IMG/VR virus record: IMGVR_UViG_3300010430_000243
Coordinates: 1-36,623 of that record
Direction: 5' to 3' (one strand)
Length of the DNA: 36,623 nt
Source: a virus
Shown: in pieces, positions 11,842 to 18,224 of the stretch
How positions within the stretch are numbered: position 1 is the stretch's first letter
Layout of the letters: each line of letters begins with the position of its first letter
Translations under genes and position numbers: made by a program
The notes under the pieces: model-generated
Told to the model about the DNA's origin: nothing
The model's database searches: none
Seen by the model: only the letters and a program-made list of their open reading frames with translations

Positions 11842-13219
11842 CCGCAAGGCATATCTCGACTTCATCGCAAGTAAGGGGGCGGCGGCGCAAACCGCCGGCT
11901 TCACCCCGAAGAACCTGCCGGATCGGCTGTTCACGCACCAGGAGCGCGCCACGCGGTTCGCGCTCGAGAAAGGCCGGGCGGCGCTGTTCCTCGATACCGG
12001 GCTGGGCAAGAGCGGCTGCGAGGCCGTCTTTGCCGATGAATGCGCGCGGGAGACCGGCAAGCCGTCGCTGATCCTGACACCGCTTGCTGTGGCCCGGCAG
12101 ATGCAGCGTGAGTGCGAGGCGTTCGGCGTGGACGCGGCCGTGATCCGCGAGGACGGCGACAGCGACTGTTACGTGCAGATCGCCAACTACGAGCGCCTGC
12201 AAAAGCTTGACCCATCGCGCTATGGGGCGGTGGTTCTGGATGAATCGAGCATTCTGAAATCGTTTCAGGGCAGCACCAAGCGCAAGCTGGTCGAGGCGTT
12301 CCGCGACACGCCATACCGCCTAGCCGCGACTGCGACCCCGGCGCCCAACGATCACATGGAGCTAGGCACGCACGCCGAATTTCTCGGGATCATGGGCAGC
12401 ATGGAAATGCTCTGCCGCTGGTTCATCAACGACACCACCACCGCCTCGCAGGACTGGCGGCTGAAAGGCCATGCCAAGGATGATTTCTGGGCGTGGGTCG
12501 CGTCGTGGGGCCGGGCTGCATCCCTGCCGTCCGATCTGGGCGGCGAGGATGATGGTTTCGTCCTGCCGGCGCTGCACCACCAGACGCATATCGTGGGCGT
12601 CGATCTGACGGACGGTGCCGAAGATGCCTTGTTCCGCATCCCGTCCATGGCCGCGACGGATATCCACCGGGAAAAGCAACGCACCATGCTTGAACGCGTC
12701 GTTCGCGCCGCTGATATCGCCAATGGGCACAATGGCTATGTCATCGTCTGGTGCGAACGTGACGATGAGAGTGCGGCGCTCACCGATGCCATTCCCGGCG
12801 CGGTGGAGGTCAAGGGCAGTATGCCACTCGAAGCCAAGGAGGCGGCGCTTGAAAGCTTCGCGCTCGGCAACGCTCCGGTGATGGTGACCAAGCCCAGGCT
12901 GGCTGGGTTCGGGCTGAACTTGCAGCATTGCCATTGCCAGGTATTCGCCAGCATCTCGCACAGCTACGAGCAGTACTATCAGGCCATTCGGCGCAGTTGG
13001 CGGTTCGGGCAAAAGCACGAGGTCACCGCGCATATCGTCATGGCCGAAACCGAACTGCCGATCTGGCGGAACGTGCAGCGCAAGGCCGCCGATCACGATG
13101 CCATGAAGGCCGCCATGACGAAGGCGATGCGAGGCGCGCAGCGCGAGAGCAAGCGCCGGGCCTATACCCGCGCGCCTGCCGTCGATCTTCCTGACTTTCT
13201 GAAAGGCTCAGCAGCATGA
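11834..13219 (+). CDS. SNF2-like superfamily II helicase/translocase
   Basis: A 461-residue protein. Walker A DTGLGKS is at 54-60, motif II LDES at 135-138 and motif III TATP at 166-169. The second RecA lobe ends with QAIRRSWRFGQ, the motif VI arginine finger of SNF2-like enzymes. I used the ATG at 11834 because GGAG lies upstream; the preceding in-frame GTG at 11810 lacks a ribosome site. It overlaps dnaN by eight bases and the methyltransferase gene by four. A double-stranded DNA translocase role in phage replication or DNA modification is inferred. Confidence 0.88.
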   Translation: MFDRKAYLDFIASKGAAAQTAGFTPKNLPDRLFTHQERATRFALEKGRAALFLDTGLGKSGCEAVFADECARETGKPSLILTPLAVARQMQRECEAFGVDAAVIREDGDSDCYVQIANYERLQKLDPSRYGAVVLDESSILKSFQGSTKRKLVEAFRDTPYRLAATATPAPNDHMELGTHAEFLGIMGSMEMLCRWFINDTTTASQDWRLKGHAKDDFWAWVASWGRAASLPSDLGGEDDGFVLPALHHQTHIVGVDLTDGAEDALFRIPSMAATDIHREKQRTMLERVVRAADIANGHNGYVIVWCERDDESAALTDAIPGAVEVKGSMPLEAKEAALESFALGNAPVMVTKPRLAGFGLNLQHCHCQVFASISHSYEQYYQAIRRSWRFGQKHEVTAHIVMAETELPIWRNVQRKAADHDAMKAAMTKAMRGAQRESKRRAYTRAPAVDLPDFLKGSAA

Positions 13220-14178
13220 AACCTGAATTCCAAGGCCGAGATTGGGGCCTCTACAACGCCGACTGCATCGAGGTCATAAACGGGATGCCGGAAGGCATGA
13301 TCGACCTTTCGATCTTCTCGCCACCGTTCGCAGATCTGTTCGTCTATTCCGACAGCGAGCGGGACATGGGCAACTGCGGCGGATACGACGAGTTTTTCGA
13401 CCATTACCGCTATTTTGCAGATGGGCTGTTCCGCGTCATGAAACCTGGGCGGATCACCTGCGTGCACTGCACCGATCTTCCGGCGCGCAAAGGCAAGGAC
13501 GGGTTCATCGGCCTGCATGACTTCTCGGGCGATCTGATCAAGGCGCACCGCGAAGCCGGGTTCGTCTACCACGCCCGCGCGACGATCTGGAAAGACCCCG
13601 TAGTCGAGATGCAGCGGACCAAGGCGCTTGGGCTGCTCTACAAGCAGCTCCGCAAGGACAGCAGCATGTCCCGCGTCGGGATGCCCGACTACATGCTGTT
13701 TTTCCGCAAGGACGAACCGAACCCGGACCCGGTGCGGCACTTCTCAGAGGGCGAACGTCAGGACGCAATCGAGTGGGCGATGGGATACCATAAAATGTCC
13801 CGCGAGGAAGCGGAGGCGGTCGCAGAAAGCATGACGATCCCCGTCACCCAGTGGCAGGAACTGGCATCGCCCGTCTGGATGACGGTGCAGCAGGGCAATG
13901 TGCTCAACGGGCGCATGGCGAAAGGTAGCGAGGATGAGCGCCACATTTGCCCGCTTCAACTTGACGTGATCGAGCGGTGCCTGCGCCTCTACTCCAACCC
14001 CGGCGATCTGGTGCTCGACCCGTTCAACGGCATCGGCAGCACCGGATTCCAGTCGCTCAAGATGCACCGCAAGTATCTCGGGATCGAGTTGAAGCCGGAA
14101 TACGCAGCGCAGGCCGCGAGGTTCCTGTCTGAGGCCGAAGAGGGCGCGGTGTCCATGATTTCGGAGGGCGCGGCATGA
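13216..14178 (+). CDS. DNA amino-methyltransferase (N4-cytosine or N6-adenine, beta class)
   Basis: A 320-residue enzyme. The catalytic motif IV SPPF is at 35-38 near the N-terminus and the SAM-binding motif I DPFNGIGSTG at 268-277 near the C-terminus, the circularly permuted order of beta-class methyltransferases. SPPF rather than DPPY slightly favours N4-cytosine, but the class does not settle this. No partner endonuclease is present, so it is an orphan enzyme, probably protecting phage DNA from restriction. It overlaps the SNF2-like gene, which suggests joint action. Confidence 0.9.
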   Translation: MKPEFQGRDWGLYNADCIEVINGMPEGMIDLSIFSPPFADLFVYSDSERDMGNCGGYDEFFDHYRYFADGLFRVMKPGRITCVHCTDLPARKGKDGFIGLHDFSGDLIKAHREAGFVYHARATIWKDPVVEMQRTKALGLLYKQLRKDSSMSRVGMPDYMLFFRKDEPNPDPVRHFSEGERQDAIEWAMGYHKMSREEAEAVAESMTIPVTQWQELASPVWMTVQQGNVLNGRMAKGSEDERHICPLQLDVIERCLRLYSNPGDLVLDPFNGIGSTGFQSLKMHRKYLGIELKPEYAAQAARFLSEAEEGAVSMISEGAA

Positions 14179-16463: not shown

Positions 16464-16789
16464 CCTACCTCCCCGGATACCCGTGCCCCGTCTGCCGGAG
16501 AGCAGGCGGCAAGATCACGATCTCGATGGGCGGCGAACGCATGGAAAGCCCGTGCAGCATCGAATGCGCCGCCCTCTACATCAAAGCCAAGGGACAGCCG
16601 AAAATGGAGCAATTCGAGCGCGAGGCCGCTGCGGAAGGTGGTAATGCGGGCGGTCAGTATCTCGACCGGATCGGCAAGACGGACCTCGCCAGCCTCACCC
16701 GCGAGGAATGGGAAGAGTTCTGTGCGCTGATCTTCATCGGTGCCTGCGACGCACTGCGCAAGCGGGCTGACGACGATATTCCATTTTAG
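16460..16789 (+). CDS. Small zinc-binding protein with SSB-type C-terminal tip
   Basis: A 109-residue protein. CPVC at residues 9-12 and a later CSIEC (31-36 region) suggest a zinc-binding N-terminus. The C-terminus ends DDDIPF, the exact acidic tip of E. coli SSB through which SSB recruits repair and replication enzymes. There is no OB-fold, so it is not an SSB itself. It may imitate the SSB tail and attract SSB-binding partners. Located between the DEAH helicase and the cytosine methyltransferase. Confidence 0.75.
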   Translation: MTYLPGYPCPVCRRAGGKITISMGGERMESPCSIECAALYIKAKGQPKMEQFEREAAAEGGNAGGQYLDRIGKTDLASLTREEWEEFCALIFIGACDALRKRADDDIPF

Positions 16790-16798
16790 GAGGTGAAG

Positions 16799-18217
16799 GT
16801 GAATGACATGGTGCTACCTCCCCGACACGGCCTCTCCCTCTGCGCAGGCGGCGGCGGACTTGACATGGGTCTTGGACTTGCCGAGCCGGGCTTTGCCACC
16901 TCCTGCTACGTCGAGATCGAGGAATACCCCCGCAGCACCCTCATCGCAGGGCAGCGCGCCGGATACCTCCATACCGCGCCAATCTGGGACGACCTCAAGC
17001 GGTTCAACGCCGTGCCATGGCGCGGACAGATCGACACCTTGCTCGCAGGATACCCATGCCAGCCGTTTTCCCAAGCGGGACAGCGAAAGGGCGAGAATGA
17101 CCCGCGCCACCTATGGCCCGACATCGAACGGATCATCGGAGAGCTTGGCCCCGGCCTGCGCTGGTGCCTATTCGAGAATGTTGCGGGGCACCTCACCCTT
17201 GGCCTTGAAACCGTGGTGCGCGCCCTACAAGGAATGGGTTTCACGCCTGCGGTTGGCGTATTCTCAGCGGAAGAAGTTGGCGCGCCGCATGAAAGACAAC
17301 GGGTCTTCATTGTGGCCCACCGCGCAATCGAGGGATGTGCGCAGCGGCGACATTCCGGGAGGGAAGAGGCAGCAACGGAAGGCGGCTCAGGGCTGGTCGC
17401 AAAATCTGAACGATGTGGCGGAGGCCAAGAACTGGCCCACACCGATGGCCGGAACCCCGGCGCAGAACGGCAACAACGCGGCGGGCAACAACGACTTCAC
17501 CCGGAAGGCGGAGGAACTGGCTTCTGCGATGTGGATGACGCCAGTGGCGAACGACGACAACAAGTCGCCAGAGGCTCACATGGCGATGAAGGCCAGAATG
17601 AAGGGCGGTCCGAGAAAGACCGTAACCAGCCTGCAAGTGCAAGCCAAGATGTGGACCACCCCACAAGCGCACGATGTGACGGCGCGGGGCAGCGGTCAGA
17701 AGCCGACATCGAAGGCCGGGAACGCCTGCCTGGCGAGGGATGCGATGAATTGGCCGACACCGGCGAGCCGGGACCACAAGGGCGAGAACGGCGCGGCGCA
17801 CCTGACCAACGGGACCGGCCGGCTGCATCTGGATCAGCCTCCGAATTTCGTCGCCCATTGCTTCACCCCCCCGGCCCAGCGGATATGGACCACTGGCGTG
17901 CCGCCCTCGATCTGGCGCCCGATCTCGCGCCGGCTGTTGCGCTCGGCGACATCGCAAGTGTCGCAGGTGTCGCTGCGCAGATGGTTGCGGCAGGGCACAT
18001 GGCGGAAGCGGAGGCTGAATCCATTGTTCGTGGAATGGCTGATGGGATGGCCGCCAGGACACGCGCTCTGCGCCTGCTCGGCAACGGGGTTCATCCATTG
18101 GCAGCAGCATATGCGTGGCGCTCTCTCAGCTATGCCCACGGCCTCGGGCGCGTGGATCTGGGAGCCACAGAAGGACGGGCCGAAGCTGGAAACATATGCG
18201 GATGTGAGCCTTTTTGA
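16799..18217 (+). CDS. dcm: Cytosine-5 DNA methyltransferase (Dcm-like)
   Basis: A 472-residue open frame. Motif I is LCAGGGGLDMG (14-24), motif IV GYPCQPFSQ with catalytic Cys87, motif VI ENV (126-128), motif VIII ERQRVFIV (165-172) and motif X LGNGVHPLAAAYAWRSL near 427-443. AGGAGG at 16788-16793 supports the GTG at 16799; an ATG at 16808 is too distant. Residues about 180-390, the normal target-recognition region, are low-complexity Gly/Arg/Gln/Glu, and there a second frame looks more coding-like (see next entry). It is an orphan enzyme, likely anti-restriction. Confidence 0.82.
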   Translation: MNDMVLPPRHGLSLCAGGGGLDMGLGLAEPGFATSCYVEIEEYPRSTLIAGQRAGYLHTAPIWDDLKRFNAVPWRGQIDTLLAGYPCQPFSQAGQRKGENDPRHLWPDIERIIGELGPGLRWCLFENVAGHLTLGLETVVRALQGMGFTPAVGVFSAEEVGAPHERQRVFIVAHRAIEGCAQRRHSGREEAATEGGSGLVAKSERCGGGQELAHTDGRNPGAERQQRGGQQRLHPEGGGTGFCDVDDASGERRQQVARGSHGDEGQNEGRSEKDRNQPASASQDVDHPTSARCDGAGQRSEADIEGRERLPGEGCDELADTGEPGPQGRERRGAPDQRDRPAASGSASEFRRPLLHPPGPADMDHWRAALDLAPDLAPAVALGDIASVAGVAAQMVAAGHMAEAEAESIVRGMADGMAARTRALRLLGNGVHPLAAAYAWRSLSYAHGLGRVDLGATEGRAEAGNICGCEPF

Positions 18218-18224
18218 ATGCTGA
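17289..18224 (+). CDS. Overlapping +1-frame product with W-x-T-P repeats
   Basis: A second frame over the 3' two thirds of the methyltransferase gene. From the ATG at 17289 it gives 311 residues with repeated W-x-T(P)-x-A-x-D units near 9, 49, 82, 122 and 155 (for example NWPTPASRDHKG) and LNPLFVEWLMGWPPGH at 243-258. This C-terminal type is familiar from phage cytosine methyltransferases. By hand count its third codon positions are about 80% G/C, against about 52-63% for the other frame. It may be a separate protein, or be fused to the N-terminal catalytic part by frameshifting. The ATG has no good ribosome site. Confidence 0.55.
   Translation: MKDNGSSLWPTAQSRDVRSGDIPGGKRQQRKAAQGWSQNLNDVAEAKNWPTPMAGTPAQNGNNAAGNNDFTRKAEELASAMWMTPVANDDNKSPEAHMAMKARMKGGPRKTVTSLQVQAKMWTTPQAHDVTARGSGQKPTSKAGNACLARDAMNWPTPASRDHKGENGAAHLTNGTGRLHLDQPPNFVAHCFTPPAQRIWTTGVPPSIWRPISRRLLRSATSQVSQVSLRRWLRQGTWRKRRLNPLFVEWLMGWPPGHALCACSATGFIHWQQHMRGALSAMPTASGAWIWEPQKDGPKLETYADVSLFEC

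Follow-up and report, generated by a model that had tools for sequence, protein, structure and literature searches.

A phage cytosine methyltransferase gene with two conserved overlapping reading frames that probably encode complementary parts of one enzyme

One gene in the viral record IMGVR_UViG_3300010430_000243 (36,623 nucleotides, analysed over its whole length and referred to here as the window) can be read in two overlapping frames, A and B (+1), as an ORF check confirmed, which raises the question of whether both readings are proteins and how their functions relate. The initial annotation had described two coding-like frames, with methyltransferase motifs I–VIII and X in A and W-x-T-P repeats in B, and had offered a frameshift fusion, a separate gene from position 17289 or real overprinting as explanations. 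The observation was confirmed and extends further than it had described, and its interpretation was partly supported. Both frames are open, and the database search of the two translations that it had proposed returned phrog_363 and PF00145 for A and phrog_27243 and phrog_1008 for B.

Frame A (16808..18217, + strand; ATG 16808, alternative start GTG 16793) encodes a C5-methyltransferase catalytic polypeptide. The PF00145 (DNA_methylase) match, with E 3.3e-26, covers residues 14–178 of the ORF starting at 16793, and motifs I–VIII of the large catalytic domain, including PCQ and ENV, occupy 16832..17326 (+) according to Pfam and the alignment. Motif X, GMAARTRALRLLGNGVHPLAAAYAWRSL, lies at 18044..18127 (+) and overlaps motif IX of frame B; it falls within the phrog_363 match, which spans frame A residues 14–448, and its position matrix scored 66.3 in A against a maximum of -35.3 in B. 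Motif IX was missing from this chain: by a matrix whose training set included the window rows, the best score in A was -27.3 vs 71.9 in B. Motif scans and the matrix likewise found no motif IX in frame A across the main locus sets.

Frame B (16803..18224, +; 473 aa) begins at ATG 16803, five bases 5' of the frame A ATG, with the N-terminus MTWCYLP, and remains open over the entire A gene, running from an image of the catalytic domain through a W-x-T-P array to motif IX. Both ATGs sit in ATGACATG, 3' of the single sequence AGGAGGTG (16788..16795, +), which, as read from the sequence, we take to be a Shine-Dalgarno site by its consensus. From 17289 onward, frame B matches phrog_27243 (E 2.8e-44, function unknown) and phrog_1008 (E 3.3e-16, labelled 'DNA methyltransferase'). 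The array (17313..17990, +) consists of five units starting at 17313, 17433, 17532, 17652 and 17751, and its W-x-T-P/A sites coincide with VAH, LAHT, VDD, VDH and LADT in frame A, as had been noticed before. We propose that these units may be target-recognition cassettes and that their frame A image is a low-complexity spacer. The motif IX-like segment, RRLNPLFVEWLMGWPPGHAL, was located by the matrix at 18009..18068 (+) and carries the conserved block LNPxFVEWLMGWP. Earlier hand counts of third-position G+C (52% in A and 79% in B; 63% and 80%) agreed with the computed GC3 of 0.50 in A vs 0.79 in B at 17341–17680 and 0.63 vs 0.79 at 17881–18160. A codon-usage model trained on 14 hand-picked long ORFs of the window favoured A in the catalytic part (0.074 vs -0.258 per codon for B) and B in the array (0.227 vs -0.144 for A), and favoured neither frame at the gene end (0.033 vs -0.009), with the third frame at -0.48 to -0.61 per codon.

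The assignment of motif IX to frame B draws on several comparisons. Apart from its first P (17/18), the block LNPxFVEWLMGWP, the most conserved in B, did not vary among the 18 B sequences aligned. The B-trained IX matrix ranked RRLTPRECARLMGFEAPGEA, presumably motif IX of E. coli Dcm, first among all Dcm positions, with a negative score of -6.7, ahead of -25.7 for the runner-up. In the same protein, the X matrix gave first place to the GNSVV segment. No matrix matches at 12 bits occurred in 1.74 million reverse-strand control residues. Two PHROG profiles were matched by both frames: B matched columns 36–58 of phrog_10223 (E 0.0013) and A columns 55–100 (E 0.038), in the order IX, X, and A matched columns 211–375 of phrog_116 (E 1.7e-33), with B matching columns 424–461 weakly (E 0.17). 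Leaving aside the phrog_116 match of B, which is too faint to count, these comparisons suggest that the frame B block is a remote form of motif IX. The B profile also matched MS2 coat protein (best E 0.0001); these matches covered about 30–35 positions in B's first half and were read as chance.

To place the window gene among its relatives, a viral search with B was performed and the best 80 of 177 matches were kept. A search with A gave 13 loci, and from a wider A search the best 80 of at least 598 were retained; a B search of named genomes contributed 80 of 82 loci, and a separately searched clade, with Salmonella phage S9-5 as the query, the best 80 of at least 563. Further sets comprised 10 loci and six loci from a Gordonia phage Trax query. 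Once the catalytic domain of a locus had been located, the frames of its motifs IX and X were scored by position matrices, trained on main-set loci (the window contig included) with IX from +1 and X from frame 0, and scanned in three frames; recall in the main set is not independent, and the S9-5 clade, the reverse-strand control and Dcm are independent. A strict motif regular expression had left 65 of 80 A-found loci without IX in B, a result that was rejected since translations of some of these loci show variants such as LNPLFVEALMGWP; the position matrix was adopted because the expression overlooked them.

Motif IX in +1 together with motif X in frame 0 was found in 314 of 350 rows over all sets, in which some contigs are present twice (e.g. 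L002/L100, L007/L082, L008/L099, L041/L112, L088/L346, L089/L347 and L091/L349) and loci within one clade are not independent. The two-frame layout occurs at about 300 phage and prophage loci. By matrix it was present in 76/79 viral loci found with B (L002–L080), in 77/80 loci found with A alone (best 80 of at least 598), in 75/80 named-genome loci, in one of three phage records and in 78/80 loci of the S9-5 clade (best 80 of at least 563). The 12 other loci of the smaller A-search set were mixed: three had the same layout, two had IX in +1 with X not found, three had X in frame 0 without IX found, two had both motifs in frame 0, one had both in +2 and one had neither. In the 10-locus set, IX was in +1 in 8/10, four of these with X in frame 0; the Trax-query set had IX in +1 in 4/6, and its two Trax-like loci are single-chain. 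At the level of sequence, one chain holds motifs I–VIII and X and its partner holds IX, which is the M.EcoHK31I arrangement.

The departures take several forms. L354 has a conventional-looking IX in frame 0, under the matrix threshold, and in L085 both IX and X are in +2. In L177, L243 and L247, frame A stops soon after motif VIII, and IX and X follow together in +1; these single-frame IX and X loci support B as the recognition half. Four others (L026, L123, L191 and L219) have the appearance of single indels. In L092 and L093, both IX and X are in frame A, and +1 holds an array of LPTP units which ends before IX; these two loci may represent recognition units alone in a second frame. Phage Jarcob genes 69/70 were considered as support and dropped: VIII, IX and X are all in +1 and gene 69 ends before VIII, so that a simple indel in a single-chain gene may account for Jarcob.

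G+C-rich DNA could by chance leave frame B open as a shadow of an ordinary methyltransferase, and the window and many of the loci are G+C-rich. We shuffled synonymous codons of one frame and counted stops in the other. With A codons shuffled over the whole window gene, 5.2 B stops were expected and none was seen; with B codons shuffled, 10.4 A stops were expected and none was seen, and in either direction 0 of 3000 shuffles were stop-free. After motif VIII only, the openness of A was remarkable (6.0 stops expected), whereas that of B was unremarkable (1.0 expected, P 0.18), a tail result that the chance explanation accommodates. Among 72 A-open loci, B had 0 stops vs 114 expected, A had 0 vs 284 expected given B, and the third frame had 485 vs 590; since B served to find these loci, only the A result is free of bias. 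This test used 76 of 80 rows, omitting L001 (the window), L026 (frameshifted) and L015 and L017 (no catalytic match). Within the catalytic domain, 46 non-redundant A-found loci had 5 B stops where 61 were expected (174 vs 201 in the third frame), and 61 genome loci had 14 vs 136; a B stop fell within the catalytic region in 14 of the 61, some being a stop just 5' of the B start. Both sets were limited to loci with IX in +1 and below 90% identity. Their tail counts extend to A's stop, so that B's own stop may be included: 18 B stops were counted in the A-found loci, with 63.5 expected, and 45 in the genome loci, with 129.5 expected.

The second clade gave the same picture, the openness and omega analyses being made there on the S9-5 clade alone. 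Across 42 loci, B had 1 stop vs 104 expected in the catalytic domain when the first three A codons were left out; with these included it had 41 vs 145, a high figure because a TGA directly precedes B's ATG. In the tail, B had 0 stops vs 37 expected and A 0 vs 83. Low G+C does not abolish two-frame openness: B openness had P 0.0005 in L271 (42% G+C) and P 0.04 in L351 (40%); in L352 (32%) it had P 0.08, but none of 2000 shuffles that kept B left A open, and in L361 (42%) it was unremarkable, P 0.66. The shuffles and the omega values given below contradict an origin by chance, which we consider exceedingly improbable. With 177 viral matches to B and a frame that is open and conserved, the suggestion of real overprinting is supported.

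Selection along the gene was measured as omega, the ratio of doubly non-synonymous to singly non-synonymous change (counted simply, Jukes-Cantor corrected and without transition bias), for which neutral controls differ from 1, with third-frame values of 1.28–3.25 in the main set. The main omega sets and the score test included only loci whose A stays open to X. In 60 pairs from 83 loci, omega in the catalytic segment was 0.17 for A and 0.59 for B (third frame given A, 1.48); in the array it was 0.87 for A and 0.17 for B (third frame given B, 1.28); and at the IX/X end it was 0.39 for A and 0.50 for B (third frame, 1.63 and 1.88). The S9-5 clade (67 pairs, 70 loci) gave 0.20 for A and 0.56 for B in the catalytic segment (third frame, 1.43), 1.46 (0.43–2.29) and 0.13 in its short array, where the third frame given B was 0.73 with a wide interval of 0.46–2.21, and 0.60 and 0.43 at the end (third frame, 1.39 and 1.40). 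A score test on 150 distant pairs among 21 representatives below 62% identity was in agreement and yielded median z values for A, B and the third frame of 17.5, 2.3 and 0.9 in the catalytic segment, 0.6, 6.2 and 0.6 in the array, and 4.6, 7.4 and 2.9 at the end.

Because omega shifts frame by segment, A functions in I–VIII, B in the array and both at the end. Purifying selection acts on both frames in the end segment (omega below 1) and elsewhere is strong in one frame only, which answers the selection test that had been suggested for this gene. The initial annotation had further asked whether two C-terminal classes of phage methyltransferase are frame images of one another; this is supported, in that the LADT tail of A is a near-passive image of the B array (omega 0.87/0.17), and low-complexity LADT tails and W-x-T-P proteins can be explained as two readings of one DNA. 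It had overlooked that the frames are complementary: with IX only in B and X only in A, they look like halves of one enzyme and not like alternative C-termini. The first 30 codons of B have an omega of 0.32, and B's front half is for that reason perhaps more than a spacer.

The start codons bear on how the two frames would be expressed. Of the 163 non-redundant loci of the main set, 137 have a recognisable B start with a W-x-Y-x-P-like motif after it; 136 of these 137 starts lie within 13 nt of an A start codon, 53 stand directly behind an in-frame stop, and all 137 B frames are open from the start through IX (median 396 codons). The S9-5 clade begins with ATGAATG in 38/42 loci and GTGAATG in one (RTGAATG, 39/42), A starting from the first codon and B from the ATG, with a TGA in B's frame between them. 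The idea of a separate gene from 17289 found no support, as an ATG at that place was found in only 37 of 212 anchored loci and was dropped as a general B start; the conserved start is 16803.

Neighbouring starts are a requirement of two translated proteins, not of a frameshift. A programmed frameshift, which the initial annotation had also entertained, would join A (I–VIII) to B (recognition and IX), perhaps returning to A for X, in a single chain. The colinear DNA order of I–VIII, array, IX and X is compatible with it, as are single-chain relatives such as Trax, the 26/163 loci without a recognised B start and the loci that open B only inside A; in the low-G+C, remoter L351, L352 and L361, B opens about 65–215 bases inside the A match and therefore starts internally or otherwise. 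Yet such a shift needs neither an open B throughout the catalytic part (in the S9-5 clade, 1 stop vs 104 expected) nor a B start beside that of A, nor an A open across the array (0 stops vs 284), and including X would demand two opposite shifts. With both frames open end to end and the B start adjacent to A's, we regard a fusion of A to B as improbable.

A small group of loci separates the parts of frame A. The initial annotation had looked to homologues with a conserved A middle and a B interrupted by stops as evidence against its reading, and the reverse was found: of 232 rows with IX in +1 and X in frame 0, 11 have an A that breaks off ahead of X, and in all 11 the VIII-to-IX stretch of B is free of stops. 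Nine of these rows are related (L041 and L112 being one contig) and have 4–14 A stops between VIII and X, with the I–VIII part and the X block open in A. In this clade A's middle is dispensable and both ends are retained, and such loci, too, favour B as the recognition half. The X block begins with an ATG behind GATGARGG in 8/9 rows, the exception being L080; GATGARGG is a possible ribosome site, and the identical bases also encode a conserved B stretch. Loci with a broken A and an open X block include L039 (3726–4000) and, at the same place, L040, L041, L109, L112, L193, L196 and L209. Judged from their reading frames, these loci could encode a three-polypeptide methyltransferase.

The W-x-T-P units were compared across the collection, which gave 880 such units from 238 loci, with 0–8 per locus and inner units mostly of 28–37 aa. 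Identical unit types recur at differing positions, and 3 of 14 unit types examined are shared by loci whose catalytic domains are only 26–40% identical. This distribution resembles that of swapped recognition cassettes, which may be their function. The WPTPMAGTPAQNG unit of the window (17432–17521) shares 81% DNA identity with Bordetella phage PHB09 and, across 80 bases, 81% with EBPR siphovirus 2, and was the sole piece of the gene to align to these two phages in that search; it may reflect cassette exchange between distant phages.

Structure prediction was applied to each frame separately. The AF2 model of A alone, made for homolog L023 with 63 sequences, had a pLDDT of 82 and a pTM of 0.79, with most of residues 185–207, which mirror the array, under 50 pLDDT, and its top Foldseek matches were M.HaeIII/M.HhaI over about 170 of 324–327 residues, in agreement with the placement of I–VIII in the window. 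By this model, A is predicted to fold by itself as the large domain. The model of B alone was of low confidence (pLDDT 60.6, pTM 0.22).

Frame B might instead be a real overlapping protein with another role, such as a regulator or an anti-restriction factor, and not the recognition half. The constraint on its first half and its openness where A is broken in 11/232 rows would suit such a role. Against it stand the lack of IX in frame A in the main sets, the existence of fused IX and X in one frame, an A model that matches the large domain only, and the retention of both A parts, I–VIII and X, in the broken-A clade, and we think it unlikely that B acts apart from the methyltransferase.

Based on the layout, its conservation, the frame-specific selection, the neighbouring starts and the motif order, all of which are established, we hold it highly probable that two polypeptides from neighbouring starts, A with catalysis and X and B with recognition and IX, form one enzyme. 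A single ribosome site would serve both start codons, which lie within a few bases of each other, and two full-length polypeptides would result. A would contribute the large domain (I–VIII; SAM binding and catalysis) and motif X, and B, whose translation and assembly with A we infer from sequence, would contribute the target-recognition cassettes and motif IX. Each frame would be mostly spacer where the other matters, and strong dual coding would be confined to the last ~67 codons, where IX in B lies over X in A. By analogy with the two chains of M.EcoHK31I, A and B may associate into one C5-methyltransferase. Phage methyltransferases commonly act against host restriction, and the A–B enzyme would presumably protect phage DNA against restriction at one or several sites. 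One caveat is that B's first half is constrained (omega 0.59) beyond the needs of a pure spacer. That the window gene represents a phage-wide gene class, with the whole region read in two frames from neighbouring starts, enzyme halves, exchanged cassettes and a functional first half of B, is a broader proposal towards which we lean only slightly.

The small chain of M.EcoHK31I is encoded in another frame inside the large-chain gene. In the accessible text of PMC3404938, this enzyme (YGGCCR) has a large chain with I–VIII, X and the predicted recognition domain and a small chain with IX, and it is termed a naturally split enzyme in that of PMC3439449. Compared by topology from these descriptions, the present gene is alike in having I–VIII and X in A and IX in B, but differs in that B spans the whole gene, starts beside A, carries a W-x-T-P array (0–8 units) and occurs in many phages; moreover, the recognition domain predicted in the large chain of M.EcoHK31I (PMC3404938) is here proposed in B. 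M.AquI, with I–VIII in the large and IX–X in the small chain (same source), resembles L177, L243 and L247, although these use two frames, whereas in most loci, the window included, X stays in frame A and the two frames overlap along the entire gene. A third comparison concerns single-chain enzymes. In the multispecific enzymes of Bacillus phages, the recognition domains lie between VIII and IX in a single chain and a single frame. Tandem recognition domains give these C5-methyltransferases several targets, as far as described in PMC8936443; in contrast, the candidate units here are in a second frame and mostly of 28–37 aa. The accessible part of a review of overlapping viral genes (PMC8227390) mentions a methyltransferase only for a plant virus replicase, and no paper on two-frame phage C5-methyltransferases was found in the literature searched, which covered few subscription papers.

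If correct, the pair would to our knowledge rank with the longest and most widely distributed dual-coding genes of tailed phages, and there would be a clear reason why both frames exist. The gene would also offer natural intermediates of a gene folding onto itself, namely a single chain, a two-way split, possibly three pieces and full overlap, and assays on one annotated frame of such methyltransferases might fail or mislead on specificity. The two readings are filed apart: phrog_363 (A) and phrog_27243 and phrog_1008 (B) are separate PHROG families and here two frames of one gene. Among eight dual-frame phage records, five list frame A only, three frame B only and none both. The three with B annotated and A unannotated (L261:1434–2567, L262:2100–2708 and L264:1625–2125) label it cytosine methyltransferase twice and hypothetical protein once; in Acidovorax phage Alfacinha1 the annotated methyltransferase is the frame B reading that starts with MWLYIP.

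At the 3' end of the window gene (18215–18224), the TGA stop of A adjoins ATG 18218, in A's frame, of a Prim-Pol/DUF3987 protein, and the final 7 bases of B overlap this gene, which lies 3' of frame A. Upstream, at 13216–14178, the window encodes a second DNA methyltransferase, of the N6/N4 type (PF01555, E 2.5e-25).
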